64,000 nt of DNA from Geothrix sp. 21YS21S-2 (GCF_030846775.1 NZ_CP132910.1:2018001-2082000), one strand, 5' to 3'; shown: positions 34,667 through 54,377, numbered from the stretch's first letter. The notes: a model not told the origin generated them from the letters alone. Numbers and translations: made by a program.

Positions 34667-37600
34667 TCACACTCCCAGCACGACCTCGATGCGTTCCACT
34701 TCCCCGGTCCGGTCGAAGAGGGCCCGGCTCGTGGAAAGGTCGAGGGACAGCCCGGGGAAGCTCCGGAAGGAACCATCGGCCAGGAGGATCCGCAAGGACG
34801 GCGTTCCGGCGCGTTGGGCCACCACGGGGACCTGGCAGAGCGTATAGGCCAGGCAGCCTGCGGGCAGACCCAAGGTGCGGGACCGGCCCTCCAGATCGAA
34901 ATACCGGAAGACCGCGGGGCGAGTCAGGAATTCCCCCTCCGGCATCCACGCGGGGTGGAAGACGATGCGCCCCGCCTCCACCTGCACCCCCAGGTCGCCG
35001 AAGCGGGACAGGAAGTCCTCCTTCACCTGGCCGGTCATGCCGGGCTGCTGCGCCCCGCCCTGGGCCGGAGTGTGGGAGTAGGGGTCGATGGGGATCGCGC
35101 CCACCTGGGCGGGGCTCCGGTGCACGCCCAGGCCTTCCCGGATCTCCCGGCAGTGGCGCTGGAGGCGGGGGAAGGCGGGATCGTCCGGGGACGTGGCGCG
35201 CCGGGCCTCGTCGGCGGCCAGGAGGAGCTTGGCCACCATGTGCCAGTAGACGCAGCCCAGGCCCTCGTACTTGTAGAAGGTTCCGGACCTGCCGGTGAAG
35301 GACTGGTGGTCGAAGACCGTCTCGTAGAGGGCCAGCACCTCCTCGCGGCCGGGACCGTCCCAGGCCAGGGCGCCCAGGGCCGCCTCCAGTTCGCGCCGGC
35401 TGCGGAAGCCGGCGTTGAAGTGCACCCTGCCCTTCACGTCCCGGGCCACGATGGCGGTGTCGCCGGCCTCAAGCAGGGCCCCCAGCAGGGGGATCCGGGC
35501 GGGAGCGTCCGGGGGGAGGATGTTCTTCTCCAGGAAGCGCGGCAGCTCGCGGTCGGGATAGAGCAGGTAGCTGTCCACGTCCTCCCGGCGCAGGGGACTG
35601 CGGCGCAGGGCGTCCAGGAGGCCGGCGGCCTCGTCCGGCGACAGCACCCCGGCGCCCAGGGCGGCCACCTGCCCTTCGAGCATCGGCTGCAGGCGCCGGA
35701 TGGCGATGCCGTCCACCTCCAGCCGCATGAGGTTGTAGGCGTGGTAGAGGCCGTCGTCCCTGCGGTTGGCGCGGATGGCGTGGTCGAGGTGGCCCAGGGC
35801 CGCCGCGAAGAAGGACCGCAGGCGCGCGGCTGAAACCGGGGCGAGGAGGCCGGAGCGTCCGCGGGCGTAGAGGCCTTCCCGGTAGTCCGAGGCGGCGCGG
35901 CCCAGGGCGTCCAGCATGCGCCTGCGGCCGGGGACGGTGTCGGCCGCCTCCGGGGTGGTCCCTTCCAGGGCCGTGGCGACGCCGTCGAACCACCCCGCCA
36001 CCTCCAGGGCCACCGGGGCGTCGCCGGCCAGGAGTCCGCCGCAGAAGGCCAGGAACCGGCGCAGGTGGCACAGGGTGACCATGGAGACGCCGTAGCCCAC
36101 CAGGGCGTTGTTGGCGTCGTTCCACTCGGGCCGCTGGGTGTTCATCCAGATGCCGGCGCCGGGGATGAGGTTGGAAAGCTTGGCCAGGGCCACCACCAGC
36201 AGCTTTTCGGCCAGGCCCGCCCGCACCGGGCCGTCCGGCCCCGCCAGGAGCTGCCCGTCGGCGCCCAGGGCCCCGGCCCGGGCCAGGATGCGGCGGTGGG
36301 CCGCCGCGTCGAAGTCGATGGTCCGGTGGGGGTCGGCCAGCAGGTCCTCGTAGGGCTTGATGCGGTAGGGCACGTCGAGGTACCCGAAGACCCGCTTGTG
36401 CAGCAGCGGGGACAGGGCGCCGGGGAAGGTGCGCTCGGAGGCCTCCAGGAGCCGCAGGAGGTAGACCACCTGGTGGTCCCCCCAGTAGCCGATGAAGGAC
36501 CAGGGATCGTGGGGGTCGTGGGTCTCCCACTCGAAGCCCTCCCGCAGGACGCGGTAGGGATTGTGCCCGTCGGCGGTGGAGCCGGCCAGGAACTTGGCGA
36601 TCATGGCCTCCAGGAAGGTGGGGTAGCTGAAGGCCAGCGCCTCCCAGTTCTGGAAGATGTCCCGCCAGTTGCCCTGGTAGTTGTAGAGCTGGGAGCCGCC
36701 GGGCTCGCGCACCTGGATGGAGAAGATGTTCCAGGGGCGGCTGGGGTCCCCGTGGCGGCGGCTGAAGGTCAGCGGCAGGTACTCCCGGCCCAGGCGTTCC
36801 AGGTCGGGGTCCCCGCAGGCCTCCAGGGCCGCGAGGAAGTCCCGGCGCCCGGGAGCCTCCTCCAGGGCTGCCAGGACGTCCTGATTGCGCGCGGCCACCT
36901 CGCGGTTGGACGCGGCCAGGAAGCGCCGGAAGTCGTCCCGGGGGATGCGGGTGCCCAGCCCGGGCATCCCGCCCCGCATGATGTTGAACAGGGTGTTGGA
37001 GAAGTGGCGGCTGGCGCTGCGCTCGTCCTCGCCGGCCTGGAGCCCGTCGGCGCCGGCCACCCGGCGCAGGAGGCCCTCGGTGCCGCGCTCCACGTCCTCC
37101 AGGAGCTGCGCGCGCAGGTCCCCGCCCCCGGCCAGGAGTGCCTCCAGGGCCACCACCGCCGGTGCGTCCAGGGCCAGGTCGGCCACCACGAACCACTCGC
37201 GGCAGGTCCCGGGCTCGAGGGCCAGGGCGGCGTTCACCAGGTAGGCGCCGCGGCGCCCGCACACGTCCGTCTCCTCCACGAGGGCTTCCCCCCTGCGGAA
37301 GGCGGCGAGCTGGACGGTGGAGAGGAGCCGCACCGGGGCTTCCAGCCCCAGGCTCCAGGCGGTGTTCACCCGCAGGGCCTCGCTGGGTTCGGGGCGGTCG
37401 GCGGGGATGGAGCTCAGGCGGAAGAGGGCCAGGCCCGTTCCGGGCAGGAGCTCGGTGCGCTTGTAGCCGTCCACCAAAGTGCTGAACTCCAACTGGAAGC
37501 GCCAGCCGATCTGCGCGGGCAGGACGTTCTGGATTCCGTCCAGGATGTCGGCCTCAACCCGCGCGGAGCCGAGGTTCACCAGTTCGGACCGGCGCACGAA

Positions 37601-38059
37601 GCCGAAGCGGTGGCTGGTCATCCAGCACACCCGGAAGGCCAGGCCCAGGTCCTCGTTGGTCTCCTCGAAGACGATGCGGTCGCCGTGGACGCTCTTGAGC
37701 AGGTCGCGGCGGATGCGGTAGAGGCCCTGGTGGCGGTCGGAGAACGGCTCCCACAGGCAGGTGCGCCCGTCCCGCGCCACCCGCACGACGGTCTTGCTTC
37801 CGGTGTGCTCCAGGCTGTCGTGGATGCGGTCGTCGGCGTGGTAGGGGAACAGGGCGTGGTCCGGATCGCGCCGGCCGGCGGTGAGCGCGCCGTTGCTGGA
37901 CACGAACAGCCAGTGGTCGGAATCGCTCACCACGCTCATGAAGAACGGGGGCATCCCGTCCAGGCCGGAGACGCGGAACCAGCGCCCGCCGTCAAGGTCC
38001 ACGATGCCGCCGCCCACTTCCGGGGCCGCGGGCTGAAGGGGGACGCAGGCGCCGGTCAT
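34667..38059 (-). CDS. Large cytosolic carbohydrate-active protein, possible clan GH-Q beta-glucan phosphorylase
   Basis: An 1130-residue protein without signal peptide, so cytosolic. It has a beta-sandwich-like N-terminal half (GGRWFRVSGLDGMPPFF) and a helical-barrel-like part with YNYQGNWRDIFQNWEAL, DPHDPWSFIGYWGDHQ and NTQRPEWNDANNALVGYG. The PEWND motif (Asp648) recalls the catalytic Asp motif of inverting phosphorylases of clan GH-Q (GH94/GH149/GH161). GH149 and GH161 act on beta-1,3-oligoglucans and are of similar length, and the gene closes a beta-glucan operon; both points support a phosphorylase. I cannot confirm the family by search. The start ATG overlaps the GH17 stop by four bases. 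Confidence 0.55.
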   Translation of the reverse strand: MTGACVPLQPAAPEVGGGIVDLDGGRWFRVSGLDGMPPFFMSVVSDSDHWLFVSSNGALTAGRRDPDHALFPYHADDRIHDSLEHTGSKTVVRVARDGRTCLWEPFSDRHQGLYRIRRDLLKSVHGDRIVFEETNEDLGLAFRVCWMTSHRFGFVRRSELVNLGSARVEADILDGIQNVLPAQIGWRFQLEFSTLVDGYKRTELLPGTGLALFRLSSIPADRPEPSEALRVNTAWSLGLEAPVRLLSTVQLAAFRRGEALVEETDVCGRRGAYLVNAALALEPGTCREWFVVADLALDAPAVVALEALLAGGGDLRAQLLEDVERGTEGLLRRVAGADGLQAGEDERSASRHFSNTLFNIMRGGMPGLGTRIPRDDFRRFLAASNREVAARNQDVLAALEEAPGRRDFLAALEACGDPDLERLGREYLPLTFSRRHGDPSRPWNIFSIQVREPGGSQLYNYQGNWRDIFQNWEALAFSYPTFLEAMIAKFLAGSTADGHNPYRVLREGFEWETHDPHDPWSFIGYWGDHQVVYLLRLLEASERTFPGALSPLLHKRVFGYLDVPYRIKPYEDLLADPHRTIDFDAAAHRRILARAGALGADGQLLAGPDGPVRAGLAEKLLVVALAKLSNLIPGAGIWMNTQRPEWNDANNALVGYGVSMVTLCHLRRFLAFCGGLLAGDAPVALEVAGWFDGVATALEGTTPEAADTVPGRRRMLDALGRAASDYREGLYARGRSGLLAPVSAARLRSFFAAALGHLDHAIRANRRDDGLYHAYNLMRLEVDGIAIRRLQPMLEGQVAALGAGVLSPDEAAGLLDALRRSPLRREDVDSYLLYPDRELPRFLEKNILPPDAPARIPLLGALLEAGDTAIVARDVKGRVHFNAGFRSRRELEAALGALAWDGPGREEVLALYETVFDHQSFTGRSGTFYKYEGLGCVYWHMVAKLLLAADEARRATSPDDPAFPRLQRHCREIREGLGVHRSPAQVGAIPIDPYSHTPAQGGAQQPGMTGQVKEDFLSRFGDLGVQVEAGRIVFHPAWMPEGEFLTRPAVFRYFDLEGRSRTLGLPAGCLAYTLCQVPVVAQRAGTPSLRILLADGSFRSFPGLSLDLSTSRALFDRTGEVERIEVVLGV

Positions 38060-39027
38060 GGCCGCTCCCCGTAGCTCGGCGAGGTGGGCCCCGCGGGGCG
38101 CAGCTCGGGGAACCAGCCCAGGACCGCCGGCTTGGCCTTGCGGTCCACCGAGAACAGGCCCCAGTGGCCTTCCGTCCCCGCGCCCTTCCAGGGCTCGTCG
38201 AAGGCCTCGAAGATGAAGGTGGTCACGCCCATGGACTTCGCCCAGGCGCTCATCTCCTCGAAGTAGCGCTTCTGCTTGGCCTCGCTGCCGGCCCTGGGCG
38301 CGTGCTGCGGGCCCTGGGTGAAGGTGGCCCAGCCCACCTCCCCGAAGACGATGGTCTTCCCGGGATGGACGCGCCGCACTTCCGCGAACTTCTCCAGGGT
38401 CGTGGCGAAGGCCTCGTCGATGTCCTGGTTCCCCCACAGGGGGTAGCTGTGCAGGGTGATGAAGTCCAGGTGCTCCGCCAGGCGGTTGCCGGCCTTGGCC
38501 CAGTACAGGAAGTCGTCCGCCACGGTGACCCGGCAGGCCACCCCGGCCTTCACGCGCTTCACGAAGGCGATCACCACCGGTTCGGTGAGCTTGTGGTCCG
38601 ACCAGTCCACCAGGGCCTCGTTGCCCACGCTCACGGCCACGACGACGTCCTTGTAGGCGTTGGCCAGCCGGATGCCCTCGGCGACCTGGCGCTCGTTCTC
38701 GGGGGCCTTGCCGGGCTTGCCGCTGAGCCACATGCCCAGCATGACCCGCAGGCCCAGCTTGTGGGCCCGGATGGCCTCCAGCACGTCGGCGGCGTGGCGG
38801 TCGGAGCCGTAGAGGCGGATGACCTTCCACCTGCGGTCGAGGATGCGCAGGTCCTCCAGGACCTGGGCGGGGGAGGGATAGAGACCCTTGTCGGGATCCT
38901 GGCCTTCCCGGTATCCGGAATAGCACACCGCGTTCCCCCACCAGGCCTGGCGGGCCAGGTCGGGTTCGGCGGCGCACAGGCGCGCGGATAGGGCGAGGCA
39001 CAGACAGAGGAAATAACGCATTCGCAT
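38056..39027 (-). CDS. GH17 beta-1,3-glucanase/glucosidase-type enzyme
   Basis: A 323-residue secreted GH17 enzyme. After a signal peptide (to about residue 20) the (beta/alpha)8 barrel shows VIRLYGSD, the acid/base Glu137 in SVGNEAL and the nucleophile Glu230 in VFGEVGW, the two GH17 signature sites. GH17 enzymes cut beta-1,3-glucans. A periplasmic site of action is likely because there is no lipobox. It sits one base after the symporter stop and overlaps the next gene, so all three are coupled. ATG 39027 and ATG 39021 are both possible starts. Confidence 0.92.
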   Translation of the reverse strand: MRMRYFLCLCLALSARLCAAEPDLARQAWWGNAVCYSGYREGQDPDKGLYPSPAQVLEDLRILDRRWKVIRLYGSDRHAADVLEAIRAHKLGLRVMLGMWLSGKPGKAPENERQVAEGIRLANAYKDVVVAVSVGNEALVDWSDHKLTEPVVIAFVKRVKAGVACRVTVADDFLYWAKAGNRLAEHLDFITLHSYPLWGNQDIDEAFATTLEKFAEVRRVHPGKTIVFGEVGWATFTQGPQHAPRAGSEAKQKRYFEEMSAWAKSMGVTTFIFEAFDEPWKGAGTEGHWGLFSVDRKAKPAVLGWFPELRPAGPTSPSYGERP

Positions 39028-39028
39028 C

Positions 39029-40486
39029 TCAGGCTTGGGGCTTGCGGTCCTTGAGGTCCTTCTCGATCCGGACCATCATCCGGTCGTCGAGGGGGTAGAG
39101 CTTCATGAGCAGGGCGGAAACGATCAGCAGCGCCCCGGGGAAGAGGCTCATGGAGAGCCGGATGCCCACCAGGGAGCGGGCCGTCTGGTCCACGTTGGCC
39201 ACGTATCCGAACCAGGTGAGGAGGATGCCCGTGATCCACGCGCCCACGGCCAGGCCGATCTTCGTGCCGAAGATGGCCGAGGCGAAGACGAGTCCGGTGT
39301 TGCGCCGGCCCGAGCGCCATTCCGCGTCGTCGGCGGTGTCGGCGAACATGGCCCACAGCAGGGGGGAGTTGAACCCGATCACGAAGCTGGAAAGAATCTG
39401 GAGGGCGAACATCAGGGCGACGTCCCCGGGCCCGGCGAACCAGAACCCCAGGACGATCGCGCCGCCCAGGCCGATGGCCGCCATGAAGATGACCTTCTTG
39501 TCGAACCTCCGGGCCACGGGCGGGGCCAGCATCACCGCGGCCAGGAAGGCCAGGGCGTTGCTCACCAGGAAGGGCCCCAGCAAATCGTTGCGGTGCACGT
39601 AGTACTTGAAGTAGTAGGCCGAGACCGAGCCTTTGAGGACGAACGCGCTGATCATGGCCACGGCCACCACGATCATCACCACGAAGGCGCGGCTGCCCAT
39701 GAGGGCCTTGAAGTCCCCCTTGAGGTCCGCGGCCTGGTCGGCCGGGGGCGCCACCCGCTCGCGGGTGGCCAGGAAGCACAGCGCGAACAGCGCCACCGCG
39801 ATGACCCCGTAGAGGGCCATGGTCAGCTGCCATCCCTTGGCCAGATCGGCCGGCAGGGCCAGGAATTCCTTGGAGAGGAACCAGCGGATCCATTCGCCGG
39901 GGTGGGCCAGCAGGCTGTGCTGGGCCCGAAGGGCGGGCGCCATTCCGAACCACTGGGCGAGGCTGGGGGTGCAGTACTGCACCAGCACCGCCACCGAGAA
40001 GGCGCCCACGAACCGGAACGAGGCCAGGGAGGTGCGCTCCTTGCTGTTGGGCGTCATCACCCCCATGAGCGCGCTGTAGGGGATGTTCACGGCCGTGTAG
40101 AGAAGCATCAGGAGGCAGTAGGTGACGTAGGCGTACACCACCTTGGCGCCGTGCCCCATGGCGGGCGTGGTGAACGTCAGCACCCCCGCGGCCGCCAGGG
40201 GCAGGCCGAACCAGACCAGGTAGGGGCGGAAGTGCCCCCACCGGGTGCGGGTCCGGTCCGCGATGGTGCCCATGATGGGATCGGCGATGGCGTCCAGCAC
40301 CCGGGTCACCAGCATCATGGTGCCCACCGTCCCGGCCGGGATGCCGAAGACGTCGGTGTAGAAGAAGATGATGAAGAACTCGAAGGTCTTCCAGTAGAAG
40401 TTGGAGCCTGCGTCGCCGAGGGCGTAGCCGGCCTTCTCGGCGAATCCGAGGCGGCCGGCTTCTTCGGTCTGGGGGGTCGTGGTCAC
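39029..40486 (-). CDS. GPH-family sugar:cation symporter
   Basis: A 485-residue, 12-helix transporter of the glycoside-pentoside-hexuronide family (MelB-like). The N-terminal YALGDAGSNFYW, the DAIADPIMGTIADRTRTRWG cation/sugar motif and the internal loop ERTSLASFRFVGAF are typical. It should import oligoglucosides released outside or in the periplasm. The start is GTG at 40486 with CGGAG upstream. It lies 13 bases after the small barrel protein and one base before GH17. Confidence 0.9.
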   Translation of the reverse strand: MTTTPQTEEAGRLGFAEKAGYALGDAGSNFYWKTFEFFIIFFYTDVFGIPAGTVGTMMLVTRVLDAIADPIMGTIADRTRTRWGHFRPYLVWFGLPLAAAGVLTFTTPAMGHGAKVVYAYVTYCLLMLLYTAVNIPYSALMGVMTPNSKERTSLASFRFVGAFSVAVLVQYCTPSLAQWFGMAPALRAQHSLLAHPGEWIRWFLSKEFLALPADLAKGWQLTMALYGVIAVALFALCFLATRERVAPPADQAADLKGDFKALMGSRAFVVMIVVAVAMISAFVLKGSVSAYYFKYYVHRNDLLGPFLVSNALAFLAAVMLAPPVARRFDKKVIFMAAIGLGGAIVLGFWFAGPGDVALMFALQILSSFVIGFNSPLLWAMFADTADDAEWRSGRRNTGLVFASAIFGTKIGLAVGAWITGILLTWFGYVANVDQTARSLVGIRLSMSLFPGALLIVSALLMKLYPLDDRMMVRIEKDLKDRKPQA

Positions 40487-40499
40487 GAGGACTCCGGAA

Positions 40500-41087
40500 T
40501 CAGAACTGGTAGCGGGCGCCGAGCTGCAGCCAGGCGGGGTTGATGGCCCCCTGGCGGATCAGGACGTCGTTGCGCTGGCGTCCGGCGAGTTCCGTGGCCT
40601 GGAGGAGGGCCTCCAGGGTGACCCGGGGCGTAAGGGCGTATTCCGCCCCCACGCGCAGGCCGCCCTTGAGCCCCTTGCAGTCGTGGAACGGGAAATGGTG
40701 CTCGGCGTCGAAGATGGACTGGCTCTCGTCGCCCTTGAACTTCGCGGTGTAGCTGTTCAGCGACAGCCCGAAGATCCCCCGCAGCTTCGGGGTGCCGGTG
40801 TCGAAGAGGATGTCCCCGGAGAGCTGGGCCAGGGTCAGGGACGTCGTGAGGCCGTTCTTCGCCTTGCCGGGCATCGTCCCCAGGTTCAGGGAGACCCGGG
40901 CCGGAATGTCGGTCCTGGCCAGGGTGGTCTCCCAGCCCGCGTTGATCATGAAGCCGGTGGTGCTGTTCACGGCCTTCTTGTAGCTGTCGAGCCCCAGGAT
41001 CAGGCCGCCGCCGGCGGAGAAGCCGGGGTGGCCGGCGGCCAGGGGAAGCGCCAGGAGGCCCATCAGGATGGTGCGGAGGTGGTTCAT
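40500..41087 (-). CDS. Small outer-membrane beta-barrel-like protein
   Basis: A 195-residue protein with a signal peptide (MNHLRTILMGLLALPLAAG), alternating polar/apolar strands throughout and a terminal ARYQF, the Phe-ended barrel-assembly signal. Function unknown; an accessory porin or structural partner of the receptor is possible. ATG 41087 has GGAG at 6 bases, replacing a longer TTG-initiated frame. It begins 12 bases after the TonB receptor stop, inside the beta-glucan operon. Confidence 0.75.
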   Translation of the reverse strand: MNHLRTILMGLLALPLAAGHPGFSAGGGLILGLDSYKKAVNSTTGFMINAGWETTLARTDIPARVSLNLGTMPGKAKNGLTTSLTLAQLSGDILFDTGTPKLRGIFGLSLNSYTAKFKGDESQSIFDAEHHFPFHDCKGLKGGLRVGAEYALTPRVTLEALLQATELAGRQRNDVLIRQGAINPAWLQLGARYQF

Positions 41088-41099
41088 GGCATTCTCCAA

Positions 41100-44000
41100 T
41101 TAGAACTTGAGCCCGATGCTGAAATCGCCGACCTTCCGCCCGCCGTAGCCCTGGTTGTAGTCGCCGTACTTGGCGCCCAGGTCCCCGGGGGTCTGGCCGT
41201 AGAAGCGGTTCCCGTTGAACAGGGCCATGGGGCTGCCCGCGGCCACGTTGTTGGTGGCGCTGGGGGAATCCCCCGTGAAGTAGCCGTAGACGTTGGTCAT
41301 GACGAAGTGGTTGAAGATGTTGTCGATCGACACGAAGCCTATCAGGCGGACCTTGCCCAGGCCCAGGGGGATGTCCCACTGGACCTTCGCGCCGACCTGG
41401 TAGTAGTCCACGCCGGTCTTGAAGGCGCCCATGTCCCCGTAGTAGGTCGGGAAGAAGGTCTGCCAGTTCGCGGTGCGCTGGTCCACGTCGATCACGCGCT
41501 CGCCGTTGATGGACCCGGGCAGCTGCAGGGCGGAGAAGCCCGACAGGGTCCGGTAGTCGGTCCAGCCCTGGGCCTGGATGACCCCGCCGGTCCAGGCGTC
41601 GGCCTTCACGGAGAAGGACACGTTGCCCTTGCCCACGGGGTGGGCGTAGGTCAGGAACACGTGGGCGATCTGGTTGCGGCTGAGCAGGCCCTTGCCCACG
41701 GCGCGCTCCTGCTGCTCGGGGGTCAGCAGCTTCTCCCGCAGGTTCTTGTAGTTGTAGTAGTCCAGGTCGTTGGTGCCCGTGGACTGGTCGTAGGTGTAGG
41801 ACCCGATCAGGCTCCAGCGGGAGCTGAGCTGCTTCTGGAAGGCGATCTCCAGGCCGGTGTAGACCCGGTCGAACCTGGAGTTGAGCCAGGAGGTCTTCTG
41901 CTTCCACATGCGCAGGGGATCGTTGGGGTCCGGGCTGGTCATGTGGACCATGGAATCCATGCCGTAGTCATGGATGGAACTGACGATGTTGTCCTTGTAC
42001 ACGCGCCGGATGACGTTGGCCTTGAAGTAGCCGGACTCGTAGTTGCGCTGGTAGCCCACGCTGAACTCGTAGGCGTAGGGGGCGCGCAGCCCCTTGGCGA
42101 GGTAGGTCTGCCGCGCGTCCAGCATGTCGTAGGCGGGGCCGTAGTTCCTGGGGTCGATGAGCGTGTCGTAGTCCACGAAGCGCACGCCGTTCATGTTCTG
42201 GCCGGTGTACGTGTAGCCGTTGTGCGTGCCGGTGGGGGCGTCGCCCAGGGCGCCGTTGGTGTCGAAGCCGGGCTGGCCCCCGTCCAGGTTCGCGCCGTTC
42301 CACAGGTGGACGGTTCGCACTTCCCAGGCGTTGCCGCGGAAGTTGTTGGCCACCGCGTCCGAATAGGCCGAGGCCAGCTTGGCGGCCGACAGCGACCAGA
42401 TCTCCCGGTTGTTGCCGTCGGGGTTGAACTTCAGGAGCAGGCGCGGCTCGAACACGCTCATGTCGTCCAGGCGGTTGCCGCCCTGGTCCTGCATTGTGAG
42501 CTTGTTGTACCGCGCGCCGGCCATGACGTTCAGGAAGCTGTTGACGGTCCAGTTGTCGTTCACGTAGACCGAGGTGGTCCGGTTCTTGGAGTCGCCCGGG
42601 TTGTCGTAGAACTTCTCCATGTGGGCGCTGGGGCCGCGGATGGCCTCCCAGTGGAGGAAGGGGGCCTGGGTCCCGAGGCCGTTGGGCATGTTCGCCCAGG
42701 CGTTCCAGCCGTTGGCCACCGGGTTCTCGCCGGGGCCGACCTGGAGGATCTCGGTGGGGTCCGAGCCCGCTTCGCCGCGATGGAAGGTGGGATAGAGGTA
42801 CTTGCCCGTGGCGGAATCGCGGTACCAGCCGCCCGTGAACACGCCCCGGTTGCCGTACTTGGACCGGCCGAAATTGTAGAGCGTGGCCACGCTCTCGGCG
42901 CCCATGTCGATGTCGTGGCTGCCCAGGTAGGCCTGAAGCGTCTTGACGTTGATCGACCACGTGCTGTTGCCCTTCTTGAGGGGGCTGATGTCGTAGGTGG
43001 ACATGTTGGTGAGCAGCGGGCCGTAGTCGTAGCTGTCGGGGCTTCCCAGCCAGGAGTGCGGGCCGCTCTCGCCCCGCAGGACCATGGCGGGATCAGGGCT
43101 GGCGAAGTACCCGGAGACCGACACGCCGGGGTTGGGGTTCTTGACGTCGTTGAAGGTGTTGGCCGCGTAGGTGGTGCGGGCCTCGATGGACCAGTTGGGG
43201 GCCAGCATGCCGTTCCAGCCGAGGGTCCAGGCCTTGGTCTCGGTGACCATGTCGCCGATGCCGCGCATGATGTTGCCTTCCCATGGATCGGTGTTCCGCT
43301 GGCCCTGGACGCCGCCCTGCGTGGTCTTCTCCGTGAGGAAGGTGGCGCTGAGGGAGTGGTTGGTGGTGAGGAGGCCCGTCAGCTTGCCTTCGAACTTCTG
43401 GAACCTGATCGAGGAGCTCAGCTTGGTTCCGGCGTCCTCGGCGGTGTTGCCGTAGTTGCCGCCGGGACCGGTGTTGACGACGTTGTCCACGTTCGCATTG
43501 AGGCCGAAGGTGGACATGGGGCGCAGCAGGCTCTGCACCTGGCTCCAGGGGATGTTGGGCTGGCCGGCCTTGACGCCCACCACGGTGTAGCCCAGCAGGC
43601 CCGAGGTGGCCTGGCTGGGGGTGACCCGGGTGCCGAGGGTGAACCAGAGGCGGTCCTTGATGAGGGGCCCGCTGAAGGTGAAGTCGGTGGTGTGGGTCAG
43701 GTCCTCGCGCAGGAGGTTGGAGTTGTTGTTGGCGTTGGTGAGCGGGAAGTCCGCGGCCATGGAGGCCCGGCTCATGTTGGCCCGCAGCGTGCCCTCGAAG
43801 GTGTTGGAGCCGGTCTTCGTGACGATGTTCACCTGGCCGCCGCTGACGAGGCCGTTCCTTGCGTTCAGGCCCGAGGTCACCACCTGCACGTCCTCGATGC
43901 TGTCGGGCAGGGGCGCGTAGAGGGACGAGTAGGTGCCCGTGTCGTCCTTCACGTTGATGCCGTCGATGCTGTAGAGGATCTGGTTCATGTCCGAGCCGCG

Positions 44001-44552: not shown

Positions 44553-45320
44553 CTAGAAATGGAACACATAGGCGACTTCGGCGTGGGGCACAATCCGGTT
44601 GCGGGTGGCCAGCGCGTCCATGGGCCAGGAGGCGCCGGAGGCCGAGCGGCGCCCCGGCGCGCCCGTGTCGTAGGCCGAAGCCGTGCCCACGTAGTGGTGG
44701 TATTCCATGGCCGTGTAGCTCAGGAGCACGACATTGAACTCCACGCTGGAGTCCTTGTCGGCCCTCCAGGTCACGCCGGCGTAGGGGGAGGGCACGTACT
44801 TGGCCTTCCGTTCCGAGGCCAGGTAGAAGTCCCGCCAGGCCTTGGCGCCCGAGGCCACGTCCCAGGGGGCGCTCTGGGCGTCGCCCACGTACTGGTGCTT
44901 GAAGCTGCCGCCGAACTGCAGCCCCGCCTGCCAGCGCCAGGCGGCGTTCAGCGGCTGGCTGTACGAGGCCCGGACGGTGAGCCCCGCGAACTCGTTGCGC
45001 TTGGACTCCACCGCCTTGGCGGGGTTCATGGGCAGCAGGGCCGGGTCCAGCCGTGAGTCGTCCGGCGTGGTGAAGTAGTCGTCGCCGGTCTTGTAGATGT
45101 AGCCGAGCTCCAGGCCGACGATGCCGCGGCCCACGCCGTAGCCCACGTTGAAGCCCAGGCCGCTGTAGGGCGCGCGCAGGTGATCCTTCTGGCTGCCGGC
45201 CACGGCGAGCCGGAACTTGAAGCTCTTGGAGAAGCCGGTATCCTCGGCGCGCAAGGGGGCCAGCGCGCCGCAGAGGCACAGGGCCAAACCCCCGCGAACC
45301 AGGTTATTTGCTCCAGTCAT
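44553..45320 (-). CDS. Outer-membrane beta-barrel-like protein
   Basis: A 255-residue protein with signal peptide (LALCLCGALAPLRA) and a strand-rich body rich in Tyr and Gly (GLGFNVGYGVGRG; LGYIYKTGDDYFTT), ending in AYVFHF. I cannot name the family. The ATG at 45320 follows GGAGGACGTC; the longer in-frame extension is ignored. It lies between the surface lipoprotein and the receptor, 27 bases ahead of the latter, and is an expected part of the uptake machinery. Confidence 0.75.
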   Translation of the reverse strand: MTGANNLVRGGLALCLCGALAPLRAEDTGFSKSFKFRLAVAGSQKDHLRAPYSGLGFNVGYGVGRGIVGLELGYIYKTGDDYFTTPDDSRLDPALLPMNPAKAVESKRNEFAGLTVRASYSQPLNAAWRWQAGLQFGGSFKHQYVGDAQSAPWDVASGAKAWRDFYLASERKAKYVPSPYAGVTWRADKDSSVEFNVVLLSYTAMEYHHYVGTASAYDTGAPGRRSASGASWPMDALATRNRIVPHAEVAYVFHF

Positions 45321-45366: not shown

Positions 45367-48300
45367 TCAGGGCAGGAAGGCCAGGTCGTCGAGGTAGGTG
45401 ACGGCGCCGGTGCCGGCGGAACCGAAGCCGGGGAAGATCGAGACCTTGTCGTAGGTCTTCGTCACGTCGAAGAGCCCCGTGAAATTGAAGGTGAGGGTCT
45501 CCCAGGCGTTGGCCAGGGTGGTGGTCGCCTGCTTCTCGCAGGAGATCGTGCCGTTGCCCTGGTCCTCGACCTTGAGGAGCACCGGGGTGCCCGCGGCCGG
45601 GGAGTACACCCGCAGGGTGAACGTGTTGAGTCCGGCGGCGGAGAAGGGGATCCGGCCGATGGAGAAGTTGGCTCCGGTGGAGACGGTCACGCCGGCCCAG
45701 GTCTGGGCGCCGGCGATCTTGGTGACCTTCACGGCCTGGTTGGCGCCGCCCGCGGGATCCGGGGCGACGGAGGCGCCTTCGTCGCCGCCGAAGCCGGCGA
45801 GGACGTAGGTGACCAGGAAGTTGTCGAAGCTGACCGGCCCCTCGAAGGCGTCGAAGGTGACGTCGTCGAAGTAGTAGGTCTTGCCGGTGCCGGCGTTGCC
45901 GAAATCGAAGAAGATCGAGATCTTGTTGTAGACGGTGCCGGCGTTCAGCGCGGCGGTGCCGCTGGACGGATTGGCGTAGTCGAACACCAGGGTCTCCCAG
46001 GCGTTGGCCACGGTGGTGGTGGCGTCGGTCTCGCAGGAGAGGGTGCCGTCACTTGCGTTCTCGACCTTCAGCTTGACCTTGACGCCCGCGTCGGGGGAGT
46101 AGGTGCGCACCAGGAGGCGGGTGGACCCGTGGCCCAGGGGGATGCGGGAGACGGCCAGGTTGGAGGCGCCCAGGGCGAAGGTGGCCCCTGCCCAGGTCTG
46201 CGCGCCGGCGGCCTTGACGACCTTGACGGCCTTGTTGGAGCTGACGGCGGGGTCGGTGGCCACCGAGGCGTCCTCGGAGCCGCCGAAGCCGGCCAGGGTG
46301 TATGCGATGGCGGGGTCGTCGAAGGTGATCGTGGTGAAGTGGTCGAAGGCCACGTCATCGAAGTAGTAGGTCTTCTCGGCGGTCAGGGCGGTGCCGCCGG
46401 CGCCATACATGAAGTTGAAGAAGATCGACGCCTTGTCGTAGGTCTTGGTGAAGTCCAGGGCGGCGGTGCCGCTGGCGGGGGTGGCGAAGTCGAAGGTGAG
46501 GGTCTCCCAGGCGTTGGCGACCGTTGTGTTCACCTCGGCCTCGCAGCTGATGGTGCCGTTGGCGTGATCCTCGACCTTGAGGCGAACCGGGGTGCCGGCG
46601 TCGGGGGAATAGACCCGGACCGTGATGCGGGTGTGGGCGGCGTCGAAGGGGATCCCGTGCAGGAAGCCCAGGGTGCCGTTGGCCGAAAGGGTGGTCCCGC
46701 CCCAGAACTGGGCGGAGGTGGGCTTGACGACCTTGGCGACCTTGTTGGCCGCGGTGACGGGATCGGCCGCCATGGCCGAGGTCACGCCTCCGAAGTCCGT
46801 GAAGCCGTAGGCCACGTTGCCAGCGTCGAAGGTGACCAGGGGCAGGTCCATCTGGCGCATGATGATCCGGGTGTCGAAATCCTGGCTCCGGGTGGCGGCC
46901 ACGGCGCCCGCGTTGCCCGCGGCGTCGGCATAGGTTCCGGCCGGGACGTTCACCGTGATGGTGCCGGCGGTGGTGGCGGGCGGGGTCACGGTGAGGGTGT
47001 AGGTGGTGCCGTTGACCTTGGTGAGGGTGCCGGCGGTGCCTCCGGTGGTGGTGATGGACGACGCCAGGAAGCTGGTGCCCACATCCTCGCTGAAGGTGAA
47101 GGTGAAGGTGACGGGGCCGTAGGCCACGGGCGCCGCGGCGTCGTCGGTGATGGCGAGGGTCGGCGCCACGGTGTCGATGAAGGGGGAGTTGTGGAAGTAG
47201 ACGTTGTCCACGTAGACGGTGCCCGTGCCCGAGGGGGTGGCGCCGATGAACAGGAGCTGGGCCAGGTGCTTGCGGCTGGCCAGGTTGCCGAAGTTGGCGA
47301 GGGGGATGTCCAGGCCCACCCACTGCTTGGTGGCGCTGAGGGCCGGGGTGGTGGTGGCGTTCACGGCCACTTCGGACTCCGAGTCGTCGCCGCCGGCATA
47401 GATGGTGTTGGCGCCGAAGTCCACCAGCTTGACGTGGAAGTCGGTGATGTCGGGGGTCCACACGTCCACGTGGAGGTAGGTCATGCCGGTGGCGTCGACG
47501 GTGTTGCCGGCGGCGTAGAACTCCACCCCCACGTAGGCGAGGCTGGTGTACTTCTTCACGTCGTCACCGCCGACGGTGAGGCTGGTGAGGTTCGGTCCGG
47601 CGTTGCCGTTGGACCAGCTGGTGCCCCAGGTGTCCACGGCGATGTTGGTGTAGGCCTTGGACAGCAGGGAGATGACCTTGGAGGGGTCCACGGTGGGACG
47701 GGGCGGGGCCACGGTGGGCACGATCGGGGTGATGACGGTGACGGTGCCGGAACCGGGCACGGCCAGGCCGCCCAGGGTGGCGGTGATCTCCGACGTGCCC
47801 AGGGTCAGGCCCGAGACCAGGCCGGTGCCGTCCACGGTGGCCACGGCGGTGGTGGCCGAGGCCAGGTCGAACCAGCGCAGGCTCGCGTTGCTCACGGTCA
47901 CGGCGGGGGTGGCGTAGGTGATGGCGCCGGTCAGGCCCAGGGACCTGGACTTGGAGATCTCGACGCTGGTGGGGGCCCAGGCGATGGTGGCGCCGGTGGG
48001 GGCGGCCAGCTCGGCCGCGGGCAGGTTCTCGTAGCGGATGTCGTCGATCCAGATGCTGTAGGCGCCCTCGTCGGCCCCTTCGGCGAAGTGGAAGAGCCCG
48101 GTGGTGGCGGTGAGCTTGGCCTTGTTGGGCAGCGGAATGATCTGCTTGACCCAGTCCGTGGTGAGGGGGATGTTGGCCACTTCGGCGGCCCAGTCGGAGT
48201 TGCCGCCGTCGTTGCCCAGGCCCGCGACGTTCAGGGTCGCGGCCTTGCTGGCCTTGACCCAGAAGGTGACGGCGTTGTACAGGGAGAGGTTCTGGGCCGC

Positions 48301-48822
48301 GCCGGCCTTGAGGGCGCCGCCCGTGTAGCCCGAGGCGGGCACGTCGATGCGCAGGGAGGCCGCGCCGGCGTGCTTCTCGGCGGCATCGGCCGCCAGGGAA
48401 TTGGCGGACCCGCCGAAGGGAACGAAGGTCACGTTCTTGGGGTAGGCGTCCGTGAACACCGGGTAGAAGGCCGGCGCCACGTCGATCACGGCGTCGGCGC
48501 TCTTGTCGCCGATGACCGCCGAGACGACGCTGGTGCCCGCGCCCACCGCCGTGATCCGGCCGGAGGCGCTTATGGAGGCCACGGTGGGGGCGGCGGCCAC
48601 GAAGGCGGCCCCTGAGGTCACCGTCGCCGTGGAGCCGTCGCTGTAGTGGGCGGTCACCCCAAGCTGGGCGGTCTCCCCGGGGAACAGGGCCACGTGCGTC
48701 GGGGCCACGGAGAGGTAGGTGAGGTCACGGCCCCCCTTGTTGGAGCTGGAGCAGGCCAGCAGCCAGATCAGGGGCATCAACGCCAGCAGCGCGAAGCTAG
48801 CCCGGAGTCGTGGGGTGAACAT
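45367..48822 (-). CDS. Surface glycan-binding-type lipoprotein with Ig-like domains and three CBM-like repeats
   Basis: A 1151-residue lipoprotein: lipobox LLAC with Cys24, a Big_2-type Ig domain (about 35-110), a carbohydrate-binding-like sandwich (about 130-270), a second Ig-like domain (about 275-370), another binding-like region (about 385-545), an Ig-like linker and three tandem repeats at residues 660-829, 830-995 and 996-1151. Repeats share RVYSPDAGTPVxLKVED, SCE, NAWETLxF and TYYFDDVxFD. There is no catalytic motif. As first gene of the operon it is likely to hold beta-glucan at the cell surface. AAAGGAGATATC precedes ATG 48822. Confidence 0.8.
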   Translation of the reverse strand: MFTPRLRASFALLALMPLIWLLACSSSNKGGRDLTYLSVAPTHVALFPGETAQLGVTAHYSDGSTATVTSGAAFVAAAPTVASISASGRITAVGAGTSVVSAVIGDKSADAVIDVAPAFYPVFTDAYPKNVTFVPFGGSANSLAADAAEKHAGAASLRIDVPASGYTGGALKAGAAQNLSLYNAVTFWVKASKAATLNVAGLGNDGGNSDWAAEVANIPLTTDWVKQIIPLPNKAKLTATTGLFHFAEGADEGAYSIWIDDIRYENLPAAELAAPTGATIAWAPTSVEISKSRSLGLTGAITYATPAVTVSNASLRWFDLASATTAVATVDGTGLVSGLTLGTSEITATLGGLAVPGSGTVTVITPIVPTVAPPRPTVDPSKVISLLSKAYTNIAVDTWGTSWSNGNAGPNLTSLTVGGDDVKKYTSLAYVGVEFYAAGNTVDATGMTYLHVDVWTPDITDFHVKLVDFGANTIYAGGDDSESEVAVNATTTPALSATKQWVGLDIPLANFGNLASRKHLAQLLFIGATPSGTGTVYVDNVYFHNSPFIDTVAPTLAITDDAAAPVAYGPVTFTFTFSEDVGTSFLASSITTTGGTAGTLTKVNGTTYTLTVTPPATTAGTITVNVPAGTYADAAGNAGAVAATRSQDFDTRIIMRQMDLPLVTFDAGNVAYGFTDFGGVTSAMAADPVTAANKVAKVVKPTSAQFWGGTTLSANGTLGFLHGIPFDAAHTRITVRVYSPDAGTPVRLKVEDHANGTISCEAEVNTTVANAWETLTFDFATPASGTAALDFTKTYDKASIFFNFMYGAGGTALTAEKTYYFDDVAFDHFTTITFDDPAIAYTLAGFGGSEDASVATDPAVSSNKAVKVVKAAGAQTWAGATFALGASNLAVSRIPLGHGSTRLLVRTYSPDAGVKVKLKVENASDGTLSCETDATTTVANAWETLVFDYANPSSGTAALNAGTVYNKISIFFDFGNAGTGKTYYFDDVTFDAFEGPVSFDNFLVTYVLAGFGGDEGASVAPDPAGGANQAVKVTKIAGAQTWAGVTVSTGANFSIGRIPFSAAGLNTFTLRVYSPAAGTPVLLKVEDQGNGTISCEKQATTTLANAWETLTFNFTGLFDVTKTYDKVSIFPGFGSAGTGAVTYLDDLAFLP
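45370..46845 (-). repeat. Three tandem ~160-codon repeats within the surface lipoprotein gene
   Basis: Copies span 46336-46845 (170 codons), 45838-46335 (166) and 45370-45837 (156). All three share AxxFGG near the start, the AQxWxG motif, a sugar-binding-domain-like core and the final YxDDxxF strand. Copies 1 and 2 are closest in their second halves; copy 3 is shortened in its last third. Confidence 0.85.
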
Positions 48823-49095
48823 GATATCTCCTTTTTTTAGAAGAATTAAGTGCGTCAAGACAGACATGGAGGGAGGTCCCCCCGTGGCGGGTGCAGGACC
48901 CGAGCACGGGAACCGGAAGTGCAGACCAACTCAAAGAGGACTCGAGAAGGTTGCGTTATAAAAAATCATAAGTAAATGGTCTTTTTTTATTTTTCGAGAT
49001 AAGCTTTCGGAAACCTGCACAGCCCCCGTTTGCCGTTGGATTCTGGGCTTTGCCGGCCCTTTCCCCACACCCGCCGAGGCAAGAAAGGACATCCG
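48823..49095. promoter_or_regulatory. AT-rich divergent promoter region of the beta-glucan locus
   Basis: A 273-base gap between the divergent operon and its regulator. The stretch 48950-49000 is strikingly AT-rich, with TATAAC on the minus strand (48959-48954) as a possible -10 box for the operon; no good -35 is visible, as expected for an activated promoter. The regulator of the adjacent gene probably binds here. The minus-strand leader would be about 130 bases long. Confidence 0.5.
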
Positions 49096-50274: not shown

Positions 50275-50389
50275 CCCGCCACGGAAAATGAACACCCGTT
50301 ACGAAATAAGACTATAGGATAACCCTCTTTCGCTTGGCACTCTGGTTCCGATTCCCCGCCAGTCCTGTCCCTCGCATGGAGCTCCCCCC

Positions 50390-51232
50390 ATGAAGATCCC
50401 CGCCGCCCTGCCCTTCGCCCTCGCGACCCTCCTGCTGGGCTGCGGCGGAGGCTCGTCCTCCAACGACCACCCAAACCCCAACCCCTCCGGCTCCTGGGTG
50501 CTCAGCTGGAGCGACGAGTTCGGCGGGGCCGACGGAAGCGCCCCCGACGCCGCCAAGTGGGGCTTCGACCTGGGCGGCGGCGGCTGGGGCAACAACGAGC
50601 TGGAGACCTACACCAGCCGCGCCGTGAACGCGCAGATCCAGGGCGGCGACCTGGTGATCACCGCCCAGCCCGAGAGCTACACCGGCACCGACGGCATCAC
50701 CCGGAACTACACCTCCGCCCGGCTCAAGACCCAGGGCCTGTTCTCCCAGACCGGCGGCCGCTTCGAGGCGCGCATCAAGGCCCCCACGGGCCAGGGCATC
50801 TGGCCCGCCTTCTGGATGCTGGGCACCGACGTGTCCTCCAGCGGCTGGCCCAACTGCGGCGAGATCGACATCATGGAGGCCGTGGGCAGCCAGCCTTCGA
50901 CGGCCTGGAGCACCCTGCACGGCCCCGGCTATTCCGGCGCCAACGGCCTTTCCGCCAGCAAGTCCCTAGCTTCCGGCAAACTGTCGGACGACTACCACAT
51001 CTATGCCCTGGAATGGGAAGGCACCGAGATCCGCTTCTACCTGGACGGCGTGCTCTTCTCCACCCGCTCCGCCGCCAACCTCCCCACCGGCGGCCTGTGG
51101 GTCTTCGACCACCCGTTCTTCATCATCCTGAACGTCGCCGTGGGCGGCAACTGGCCCGGGAGCCCCACCGGCTCCACCCCCTGGCCCCAGAAGATGTACG
51201 TGGACTACGTGCGGGTCTACCGCCGCTCCTAG
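50390..51232 (+). CDS. GH16 endo-beta-1,3-glucanase (laminarinase-type) lipoprotein
   Basis: A 280-residue lipoprotein (lipobox LLGC, Cys18; Gly/Ser linker) with a GH16 jelly-roll domain. The active-site strand is GEIDIMEAVG: nucleophile Glu158, helper Asp160 and acid/base Glu163. The extra Met in EIDIME is the laminarinase-type beta-bulge form. It probably acts on the cell surface. A weak promoter may lie at TGAACA (50289-50294) and TATAGG (50313-50318). The next hydrolase gene starts 8 bases after the TAG. Confidence 0.93.
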   Translation: MKIPAALPFALATLLLGCGGGSSSNDHPNPNPSGSWVLSWSDEFGGADGSAPDAAKWGFDLGGGGWGNNELETYTSRAVNAQIQGGDLVITAQPESYTGTDGITRNYTSARLKTQGLFSQTGGRFEARIKAPTGQGIWPAFWMLGTDVSSSGWPNCGEIDIMEAVGSQPSTAWSTLHGPGYSGANGLSASKSLASGKLSDDYHIYALEWEGTEIRFYLDGVLFSTRSAANLPTGGLWVFDHPFFIILNVAVGGNWPGSPTGSTPWPQKMYVDYVRVYRRS

Positions 51233-51240
51233 GAGGCACC

Positions 51241-52833
51241 ATGCGACGGCTGCTGCTCGGCCTTGCCCTGGCCTATCCCTGCGCCGCCGGCGGCCTGGAA
51301 CTCAAGGACGGCTGGTACCACCTGGACGGCCACCGGTTCCTGGTGAACGCCATCGGCTACGAGACCGGGGCCCGCCCCGGCGAGGCCCCCTACGAAGCCC
51401 GCGGCCGGGACCTGGAGCAGGTGCGCCGGGACCTGGCGGTCATCAAGGCCGCGGGCTTCAACGGCATCCGCACCTGGTCCCAGATGAGCGAGGCCGAGCT
51501 CAAGGTGGTGCAGGCCTCGGGCCTCAAGCTCGTCTACGGCATCTGGCTCAAGCCCGACGAGGATTTCGCCGACCCCGCCGTGGTCGCCCGGGACCTGGAG
51601 CTCATCCGCGCGACCCTGGCCTACACGCGGAACTACGACTGCGTGATCACGTACCTGATAATGAACGAGCCCATGCCCGAGCACATCCGCAAGGTGGGCG
51701 CGAAGGCCACGCGGGACCTGTGGACCCGCGCCGTGGGCCTCATCCACGAGCTCCACCCCGGCATCCCCGTGACCATTTCGGGCAATTCGGCCATCACGGA
51801 GTGGGTGGACATGGCGCTGTTCGACGTGCGCGGCCGCAACGCCTACGACTACAAGGACAGCGCCAACTACACGCACGGCTTCGCCGAGGCCCAGCGCATG
51901 CTTTCGGGCACCGACGGCAAGCCCGCGCTGCTCACGGAATTCGGCCGGTCCGTGTCCCGCAAGGGCGAGGGCCTCTACGGCGGCAATACCCTTCGCCAGC
52001 AGGCCGACGCCATGACCCAGTACTACCGCGACTTCCTCGACGCCGGCGGCACGGGCCTGTGCCCCTTCTACTACGCCGACGGCTGGTGGAAGGCCGGCAA
52101 CCCCGCGGTGCACGACGACGAGGCCGAGGAGTGGTTCGGCTTTCTCGGCTTCGCCTCCCTCAAGGACACCACGGGCCACCCCCGCCCCGCCTGGCACGCC
52201 CTGGCCCAGTACAACCAGGCCCTGGTGGCCTCCCCGAAGAACCACGCCTTCTACCGGAACCGCGTGCCCCTGGAGGCCCACTGTCAGCCCGGCGTGAGGC
52301 GCCTGCGGGTGGTCTTCCGGGACCGGGTTCTCCTGGAGGCGGTGCCCGACGCCCGGGGCCTCGCCACCGGGGAGCTGGACTTCCCCGGCGAGGGCCTCAC
52401 CGACCGCGAGCTGGTGGTGGAGGCCCTGGACGCCGCGGGCTGCGTGGTGAAGTGGGAGACCTTCGTGGTGCTCACCGGCAAGGACCCCATCGAGTGGCCG
52501 CGGCTGGAACTCACTGCCGGCGCGGCGGGACTGGAGGGCGAAGCGGCCGTGCCCGTGACGTTCCGCCTGGGGGCCACGGGTCCCTTCAAGGTGGACGGCG
52601 ACCTGCGCTACGCCTTCTCCGCCCACAAGGGCTGGGAGCCCGCCGAGACCCGCACCCGCCGCATCCTTCCCGGAACGCCCGTGGACGACGCGTTCCGGCC
52701 GTTCGCGGGCTGCCCCGTGCTGGCGGTCTACGGCGGCGTGGACCTGCGCTTCGGCAAGTTCGTGAAGACCGTCACTGCCCGCCGGTTCCTGTACCCCGGG
52801 ACCTGGGCCGATCCCCTGCGGGTCCGGGAATGA
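51241..52833 (+). CDS. Secreted TIM-barrel glycoside hydrolase (GH5/GH2-like)
   Basis: A 530-residue enzyme: signal peptide (MRRLLLGLALAYPCAAG), then a clan GH-A barrel with acid/base Glu143 in IMNEPMPE and probable nucleophile Glu233 in LLTEFGRS, and a beta-sandwich-like C-terminal part (about 340-530). The motif set is like GH5 or the GH2 barrel, but I cannot place it in a family. The context (GH16 before, GH30 after, overlapping by four bases) suggests it acts on beta-glucan fragments. GGAGGCACC precedes the ATG. Confidence 0.75.
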   Translation: MRRLLLGLALAYPCAAGGLELKDGWYHLDGHRFLVNAIGYETGARPGEAPYEARGRDLEQVRRDLAVIKAAGFNGIRTWSQMSEAELKVVQASGLKLVYGIWLKPDEDFADPAVVARDLELIRATLAYTRNYDCVITYLIMNEPMPEHIRKVGAKATRDLWTRAVGLIHELHPGIPVTISGNSAITEWVDMALFDVRGRNAYDYKDSANYTHGFAEAQRMLSGTDGKPALLTEFGRSVSRKGEGLYGGNTLRQQADAMTQYYRDFLDAGGTGLCPFYYADGWWKAGNPAVHDDEAEEWFGFLGFASLKDTTGHPRPAWHALAQYNQALVASPKNHAFYRNRVPLEAHCQPGVRRLRVVFRDRVLLEAVPDARGLATGELDFPGEGLTDRELVVEALDAAGCVVKWETFVVLTGKDPIEWPRLELTAGAAGLEGEAAVPVTFRLGATGPFKVDGDLRYAFSAHKGWEPAETRTRRILPGTPVDDAFRPFAGCPVLAVYGGVDLRFGKFVKTVTARRFLYPGTWADPLRVRE

Positions 52834-54377
52834 TCCCGGAGGCCCTCCTCCTGCTGGCCCTGGCGGCCCCGCCCGCCCCCTTCGTCCAGTCCAGCGCCGC
52901 CGGGGACCGCCTCCGGGAGCTGCCGGCGCCCAGGTTCCGCAAGGGCGCGCCCGCGCGGGGCCCCCTTCTGACCGTGCATCCCGGCGATGCGCGGCAGACC
53001 CTCGAAGGCATCGGTGGCGCCCTCACCGAGAGCTCCGCCTGCGTCCTGGCCCGGCTCCCGAAGGCCAGGCGGGACGAGGTCCTCGACCTCTTCTTCGGCC
53101 CGGGCGGCGCGGCCTTCACGCTGGCCCGGATCCCCGTGGGCGCCTGCGACTTCTCCGTGGAGGGGCGGTTCTCCTACGACGACGTGGCCGGAGACGTCGC
53201 CCTCGCCCACTTCTCCATCGCCCCCGACACCCGGGGTTTCAAGGGCGCCCTCGACCCCGCCTACGCCCTGCTGCCCCTGGTGAAGGACGCCCTGGCCCGG
53301 GAGCCCGCCCTGAAGCTCGTCGCCAGCCCCTGGACCGCACCTGCCTGGATGAAGGACAACCAGGACTGGTACGGCGCCGGCCGCGGCGGCACCCTCCTGC
53401 CCCGCCACCACGACACCTTCGCGCGCTACATGGTGCGCTACCTCCAGGCCTACCGGGACGCGGGCGTGTCCATCTGGGCCGTGACCCCCGAGAACGAGCC
53501 CATGGGCAACGGGGGCCAGTGGGAGAGCATGGAATTCACGCCCGCGGCCATGGCGCAATATGTGGGCGGCCACCTGGGCCCGCGGCTCCGGGAGGCCGGC
53601 CTGGGCGCCGTGAAGATCATCCAGTTCGACCACAACCGCGACGCCAACGCCCTGGCCTTTTCCGAAGCGATCATGGCCGACCCCGCCGCTGCGCCCTTCG
53701 TGTGGGGCACCGGGGTCCACTGGTACGAGCGCACCGGCCCCGGCGGCAGCGCGGTCCTGGAGACCCTGCGTTCGCGCTGGCCCGCCCTGCCCCTCCTGCA
53801 CACCGAAGGCTGTGTGGACGCCATCAGCCTGAAGGAGAACGCCCCCGGCGGAACCTTCCTGGGCTGGCGCAACGACGCCTGGTGGTGGCGCCCCGGCGCC
53901 GCCGACTGGGGCTGGCGCTGGGCCCCCGAAGCCGAGCGCGGCGACCACCCGCTCTACGCCCCCGTCCACCGCTACGCCCGGGAGCTGCTGGAGGGCCTCA
54001 ACCACGGCCTGGCAGGGTGGATCGACTGGAACATCGTCCTGGACCGCCAGGGCGGCCCCAACCACGTGGGCAACTTCTGCGCCGCCCCCGTGATGGTGGA
54101 CACCGCCACCGGCGACGCCTACCTCACCCCCCTGCACGCCGTGCTGGCCCACTTCAGCCGCTACCTGCGCCCCGGGGACCGCATCGTGCGGGTGACGGCC
54201 CGGAACCCCGGCGCCCTCCTGGCCACCGCCGCCCGGAGCCGCGACGGCCGGCACCTGGCCGTCATCGCCTTCAATCCGTCCGATCGTCCGATCACCTACA
54301 CCCTCCAGGTGGGCGGATCCCGCGCGGCGGTCGCCATCCCGGCCAACAGCCTCCAGTCCATTCGGATCCCAATCTAA
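52830..54377 (+). CDS. GH30 glucanase (beta-1,6-glucanase/glucosylceramidase-type)
   Basis: A 515-residue secreted GH30 enzyme. After a short signal peptide the N-terminal GIGGALTESSA motif, the acid/base Glu223 in TPENEPMG and the nucleophile Glu326 in HTEGC are in place, with a C-terminal beta-sandwich (about 430-515). GH30_3 members cut beta-1,6-glucan and help debranch laminarin or fungal walls; subfamily is not resolved here. The start ATG overlaps the previous stop (ATGA, 52830-52833). It is the last hydrolase of the plus-strand unit; no terminator is obvious. Confidence 0.9.
   Translation: MIPEALLLLALAAPPAPFVQSSAAGDRLRELPAPRFRKGAPARGPLLTVHPGDARQTLEGIGGALTESSACVLARLPKARRDEVLDLFFGPGGAAFTLARIPVGACDFSVEGRFSYDDVAGDVALAHFSIAPDTRGFKGALDPAYALLPLVKDALAREPALKLVASPWTAPAWMKDNQDWYGAGRGGTLLPRHHDTFARYMVRYLQAYRDAGVSIWAVTPENEPMGNGGQWESMEFTPAAMAQYVGGHLGPRLREAGLGAVKIIQFDHNRDANALAFSEAIMADPAAAPFVWGTGVHWYERTGPGGSAVLETLRSRWPALPLLHTEGCVDAISLKENAPGGTFLGWRNDAWWWRPGAADWGWRWAPEAERGDHPLYAPVHRYARELLEGLNHGLAGWIDWNIVLDRQGGPNHVGNFCAAPVMVDTATGDAYLTPLHAVLAHFSRYLRPGDRIVRVTARNPGALLATAARSRDGRHLAVIAFNPSDRPITYTLQVGGSRAAVAIPANSLQSIRIPI

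Follow-up and report, generated by a model that had tools for sequence, protein, structure and literature searches.

A SusD-less putative beta-glucan utilisation locus of Geothrix sp. 21YS21S-2 with an Oar-type receptor between two small barrel genes

Gene clusters that combine glycoside hydrolase family 149 (GH149) with a TonB-dependent receptor and lack SusD are already known from the Alteromonadales, where they are called Type II (PMC5827456). In Formosa, the cluster FORMB_24720-24740 is induced by laminarin and its enzymes were assayed: FbGH30 is an exo-beta-1,6-glucosidase that strips beta-1,6 side chains, FbGH17A an endo-beta-1,3-glucanase and FbGH17B an exo-beta-1,3-glucosidase (PMC6246565). 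A survey of the Acidobacteriota placed TonB barrels and receptors among the most represented outer-membrane proteins (PMC11495043). The locus considered here occupies positions 34667-54377 of a 64,000-nucleotide stretch (the window; G+C content 69%) of the soil-type bacterium Geothrix sp. 21YS21S-2 (NZ_CP132910.1:2018001-2082000), whose genome is a single contig of 5.25 Mb and which is taken to belong to the Holophagaceae, Acidobacteriota. We consider it likely that this locus is a complete gene set for the use of beta-1,3/1,6-glucan, with import by an Oar-type receptor and two small barrels, a GPH symporter, a GH149 phosphorylase and control by a XylR-like regulator. The initial annotation had listed the two barrel genes without weighing them; both are present and proved to be the invariable partners of the receptor.

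The receptor gene and the two barrel genes form a cassette, barrel1-Oar-barrel2 (Table 1). Small barrel genes also flank many receptor relatives in related genomes, often without other genes of the locus, and both families of barrels were then searched independently with profiles (A1 and A2). All 28 barrel1 matches in the fetched loci adjoined an Oar open reading frame (ORF), and 26 of the 30 best barrel2 matches among relatives lay directly 3' of a listed Oar match. The adjacency in loci L122 to L136 is not an effect of selection, as these were fetched through barrel1 alone. Full cassettes were found 25 times in the fetched loci, always in the order barrel1-Oar-barrel2, which was unchanged across paralogues of about 30% identity. 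With one cassette per orthologue group, the pairwise distances of the three proteins correlated (r = 0.76-0.78; 0 of 2000 permutations), as would be expected from joint inheritance as a unit; such a correlation is no proof of contact. Barrel1 was present in at least 11 of 247 genomes of a phylum sample, ten of family f1 and one metagenome-assembled genome (MAG) from another family, in a scan that scored ten barrel1 candidates per genome and may have missed some.

Both barrels are weak relatives of PF13505 (27.4 bits for the barrel2 of the window; Pfam cut-off 28.7) and show only a weak relationship to one another (hhalign probability 37%), and sequence searches of the PDB gave no relative of either. 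Barrel1 has charged and aromatic residues that do not vary. Its structure model, which was not used in fold searches, had eight strands at low confidence (pLDDT 42), and the small barrels are probably eight-stranded. The receptor has the N-terminal CarboxypepD_reg extension, plug and barrel of an Oar-type protein, as had been annotated, with 60 bits for PF13620, 46 bits for PF25183 and a marginal 23.8 bits for Plug (cut-off 23.9). It matched no SusC model, and no PDB relative was found by sequence search. Elsewhere in the window, a second Oar-type receptor gene without flanking barrels lies at 9117-12263 on the minus strand (187 bits), and a partial Oar-like stretch at 63646-63957, also minus, at the window end.

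At other loci, the neighbours of the cassettes were read from Pfam matches of the flanking genes, non-sugar neighbours partly by reading. They included GH92 and ROK (L125); GH36, GalT, a sodium symporter and GH42 (L126); GH20 and GH2 (L127); two GH127 genes and the L-arabinose isomerase AraA (L129); GH35, a NagB-type gene and an APH-type kinase (L133); GH42-like, ROK, SIS and GH20 (L099); GH2 (L096); and SIS, PfkB and a class-II aldolase (L136); comparable genes stand beside locus L103 of the same Geothrix genome. Other cassettes adjoined asparaginase (L134), thioredoxin-like (L101, also in this genome) or pilus-type genes (L106, L123), so that the cassette is not sugar-specific; it appears to be a general import unit, often but not always at sugar loci. 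An asparaginase gene recurred beside the cassettes of L130, L132, L134 and L135. Tentatively, and with somewhat less than even confidence, barrel1-Oar-barrel2 may serve the Holophagaceae as a swappable module for outer-membrane import in which the two small barrels are obligatory partners of the receptor, that is, as a three-barrel TonB-dependent glycan importer. Its part at loci for beta-glucan, mannan-type, galactoside, arabinan and amino-sugar substrates would be the one that SusC/SusD plays in Bacteroidota.

SusD (PF07980) was absent from the whole 5.25-Mb genome, while a Bacteroides positive control matched; the locus had thus rightly been called SusD-less. The initial annotation had further assigned the place of SusC/SusD to the receptor together with the lipoprotein and its repeated carbohydrate-binding modules (CBM), and here the role given to the lipoprotein did not stand. 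At its N-terminus this protein carries a pair of divergent CBM-like domains, and its C-terminal part has three repeats of about 165 aa that are 52-56% identical. Residues ~120-560 of the protein align full-length with proteins of about 470 aa whose genes immediately precede GH16 in laminarin loci of Bacteroidota. At least six of these Bacteroidota loci (L010, L042, L048, L055, L058, L061) also have a SusD-like gene within the stretch, a minimum since a single subfamily served as the SusD seed. In a set of 60 relatives, full-length copies occurred only where the beta-glucan locus occurs (three same-genus genomes), and partial relatives in two Geothrix-type genomes; the remaining Oar cassettes lacked the lipoprotein. 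As its homologues coexist with SusD and it is confined to beta-glucan loci, the protein is most plausibly a surface lipoprotein that binds glucan and not a SusD replacement. If SusD has functional counterparts here, these are likely the two small barrels, whose genes are linked to the receptor gene and diverge together with it. A gene of about 1050 aa upstream of the Bacteroidota lipoprotein was considered as a SusC candidate and rejected, as it encodes a GH2-like/clan GH-A enzyme or has no Pfam match.

Gene models were derived from ORF calling, codon-position G+C content and translations. All 11 listed genes were present, each with a coding-type pattern at the third codon position, and Pfam and NCBIfam backed the annotation of the receptor, the MFS_2/GPH symporter, GH17, the periplasmic-binding-protein (PBP)-AraC regulator, GH16 and GH30. 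Two divergent transcription units flank position ~48.9 kb. The minus-strand unit reads, 5' to 3', lipoprotein, barrel1, Oar receptor, barrel2, GPH symporter, GH17 and GH149, and the plus-strand unit XylR-like regulator, GH16, clan GH-A enzyme and GH30. Four-base overlaps join GH17 to GH149 and the clan GH-A gene to GH30, and 12 bases separate the receptor gene from barrel2. The gene order is conserved in three same-genus genomes (G001, G002, G003) and in Geothrix sp. SG200, which argues that the locus is more than a chance assembly. In SG200 the clan GH-A gene is separated from GH30 by a second lipoprotein-like gene (L122, 1028-2767); the locus of the window has none.

Table 1. Genes of the locus and the operator-like element, with positions in the window
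Feature	Position	Strand	Basis
GH149 beta-1,3-glucan phosphorylase, 1130 aa	34667..38059	-	NCBIfam NF058639; PDB 6hq6; EWND motif, residues 646-649
GH17 beta-1,3-glucanase/glucosidase, signal peptide	38056..39027	-	PF00332; PDB 6fcg, 4wtp; NE and GEVGW motifs
GPH-family (MFS_2) inner-membrane symporter	39029..40486	-	PF13347, 323 bits; TIGR00792, 386 bits
barrel2, small outer-membrane barrel, cassette gene 3	40500..41087	-	PF13505 in 9/10 members (E <= 0.1)
Oar-type TonB-dependent receptor	41100..44525	-	CarboxypepD_reg, plug, OMP_b-brl_4; TonB-box-like VEVVA at residue 120
barrel1, small outer-membrane barrel, cassette gene 1	44553..45320	-	PF13505 in 4/12 members (E <= 0.1)
Surface lipoprotein	45367..48867	-	Lipobox LLAC at residue 36; Big domains, CBM-like domains, C-terminal repeats
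Operator-like element TCAAAGAGGACT-N33-ATGGTCTTTTTT between the divergent units	48931..48987	+	
XylR-like regulator, PBP sensor fused to AraC helix-turn-helix	49096..50274	+	PF13377, PF12833, PF22177
GH16 laminarinase-type lipoprotein	50390..51232	+	PF00722; LLGC lipobox; EIDIME catalytic motif
Clan GH-A enzyme, presumably secreted	51241..52833	+	NEP and TEFG catalytic motifs; family profile against PDB
GH30, presumably secreted, nearest GBA-type GH30 and Formosa GH30	52830..54377	+	PF02055; PDB matches

The strict PULDB definition of a polysaccharide-utilisation locus (PUL) asks for a susCD-like pair, which is lacking here in view of the missing PF07980 and the receptor without a SusC model match. 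Under the broad definition the locus qualifies, with genes for glycan binding, import, degradation and regulation co-localised in conserved synteny. It also shares the gene set of the Type II clusters, namely GH149, a SusD-less TonB-dependent receptor, GH16, GH17 and an MFS_2 transporter (PMC5827456). Type II regulators are a PF06580 histidine kinase and a COG3279 regulator, whereas this locus has the XylR-like AraC protein, and the Type II description includes neither the Oar extension nor flanking barrels, both of which occur here (PMC5827456). A PF06580 histidine kinase and a LytTR response regulator, the regulator types of the Type II clusters, adjoin GH149 at 32830-34633. That they belong to the locus appears doubtful, since no homologue was found in the fetched stretches beyond GH149 of G001, G002 and Geothrix SG200.

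The large enzyme, which had been annotated as cytosolic, is a GH149 beta-1,3-glucan phosphorylase according to the NCBIfam equivalog NF058639 (1424 bits; cut-off 1150) and PDB 6hq6 (1071 bits). The ORF at 34667-39001, to which the first coordinate of the initial annotation belongs, is over-extended, its frame running past the GH149 start into GH17. This over-long ORF had no Pfam match, and the idea of a novel cytosolic enzyme was dropped once the true gene was recognised as GH149. The protein has no signal peptide and is presumably cytosolic. Catalytic motifs were found in GH17, GH30, GH149, the clan GH-A enzyme and GH16. The family profile of the clan GH-A enzyme matched PDB 9fz9 (2e-49), 9oro and 6pal of GH158 and 2w62 of GH72, and relatives of the enzyme occur in Bacteroidota laminarin loci; its structure model had a pLDDT of 55 and was not used in fold searches.

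A scan of named genomes for GH149 returned 80 loci, mostly from Bacteroidota, and many of these have GH17, GH16, GH30, lipoprotein and MFS-type neighbours. Two contigs labelled as Brockarchaeota and Demequina MAGs (L002, L005) carried GH149 at 56% identity and are probably mis-binned or transferred. Relative to Formosa Hel1_33_131 (L067), identities were 46% for GH149, 40% over 495 aa for GH30, 40% for GH16, 29% for GH17, 28% for the lipoprotein modules and 23% for GPH against the MFS portion of a fused MFS-GH17 protein; the match of the clan GH-A enzyme was weak. The GH17, GH30 and MFS-GH17 matches of L067 stand in the order of FORMB_24720-24740 and were equated with these by synteny, not by accession; the L067 GH30, to which the GH30 of the window aligns at 40% identity, would accordingly be FbGH30. 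The Formosa MFS-GH17B is a fusion, whereas GPH and GH17 are separate adjoining genes here, and the laminarin PULs of Formosa are reported to adjoin SusD-like proteins and TonB receptors, in place of which this locus has barrel1-Oar-barrel2 (PMC6246565). Because of the GH149 equivalog, the homologues in the biochemically characterised Formosa PUL and the catalytic motifs, beta-1,3-glucan with beta-1,6 branches (laminarin- or fungal-wall-like) is the best-supported substrate, in agreement with the initial annotation.

The following pathway is proposed. Two surface lipoproteins, GH16 and the protein with the CBM repeats, would bind and cleave the polymer, and the oligosaccharides would pass the outer membrane through the Oar-type TonB-dependent receptor with its two dedicated small barrels; in keeping with the model, ExbD is present. 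GH30 may take off the beta-1,6 branches, and GH17 and the clan GH-A enzyme may trim the chain in the periplasm. Short beta-1,3-glucans would then be carried into the cytosol by the GPH symporter and phosphorolysed by GH149 to glucose 1-phosphate. The XylR-like PBP-AraC regulator would sense a product and govern both divergent units through the element at 48.9 kb, which is a candidate operator. Its blocks TCAAAGARGACT and ATGGTCTTTTTT are conserved as far as Geothrix SG200, and the pair is single-copy in its own genome. A weak copy of the ATGGTCTTTTTT block, with 2 mismatches, lies on the minus strand at 50304-50315, upstream of GH16.

Several observations weigh against this model. Co-divergence also arises from joint duplication without physical contact, the structure model of barrel1 is of low confidence, some cassettes have the non-sugar neighbours given above, and the clan GH-A enzyme is without a family assignment, its profile spanning 9fz9, GH158 and GH72 structures. 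Moreover, genome G033 has GH149 and GPH at a locus without the cassette, so that the use of GH149 is not strictly dependent on it. That locus (L116, 3765-19220) also carries a XylR-like regulator, GH81 and a lipoprotein-like gene, with an in-frame TAG within the lipoprotein-like region. Another beta-linked glucan, mixed-linkage or cellulosic, would suit the missing family assignment of the clan GH-A enzyme and the fact that GH16 and GH17 include beta-1,3-1,4-glucanases (1aq0 gave a weak match). Such a target is nevertheless quite improbable, as GH149 is a beta-1,3-glucan phosphorylase family and GH30 and the remaining enzymes resemble those of laminarin PULs.

As regards transport, the small barrels might be passive porins or assembly or stability factors that were co-duplicated with Oar, the receptor importing alone. 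TonB receptors of Xanthomonas CUT loci import sugars in this way without SusD (PMC1790865), the Type II clusters name just a TonB receptor (PMC5827456), and the Geothrix genome also has several Oar genes without the barrels. The constant cassette order over paralogues of about 30% identity, the co-divergence of the three genes and the invariant charged and aromatic residues of barrel1 argue otherwise, and a passive role appears doubtful, although it deserves serious consideration. It is unlikely that the lipoprotein does the work of SusD, as a lid or recruiter of Oar, and that the barrels are unrelated porins. The lipoprotein gene opens the operon, and its product, predicted to sit at the surface, has domains of carbohydrate-binding type, but its homologues stand alongside SusD in Bacteroidota laminarin PULs, it is full-length only at the beta-glucan locus among the 60 relatives, and Oar has the barrels beside it at many loci. 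Export by Oar is hardly credible for an operon that pairs a sugar symporter of the inner membrane with a cytosolic phosphorylase, the more so as paralogous cassettes adjoin sugar kinases, isomerases and symporters, even though the Myxococcus Oar is reported to be required for secretion of the protease PopC (PMC6434023).

Since SusD-less sugar loci with TonB receptors are known from the CUT and Type II systems, the locus as a whole is a variation on a known type. The part not found described is the outer-membrane unit barrel1-Oar-barrel2: the open-licence literature yielded no description of this cassette or of Oar-type or SusD-less sugar loci in Acidobacteriota, which is no proof that the cassette is undescribed. 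Acidobacteriota are plentiful in soils, and SusD-less import of polysaccharide fragments by them has received little attention. A three-gene unit that is conserved and linked to named sugars offers a direct genetic handle on such import, and its signature would flag unannotated sugar loci in Holophagaceae; a three-barrel TonB-dependent glycan importer, if true, would be an undescribed type of system. The locus resembles the Xanthomonas CUT loci in combining a TonB receptor, an inner-membrane sugar transporter, an enzyme and a regulator without SusD, but the CUT receptor is not described with two partner barrels and the sux locus targets sucrose (PMC1790865). With the Oar of Myxococcus xanthus it shares the architecture of an Oar-type TonB-dependent transporter; the role reported there is PopC secretion, with no beta-glucan operon (PMC6434023). 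There is also a functional parallel to the SusC/SusD systems of Bacteroidota, in which a TonB-dependent import slot for oligosaccharides likewise stands beside surface-binding lipoproteins and enzymes. SusC also carries an N-terminal CarboxypepD-type domain. The Geothrix genome, in contrast, has no SusD and its receptor matches no SusC model, and the putative partners of the receptor are small barrels and not an alpha-helical lipoprotein lid.

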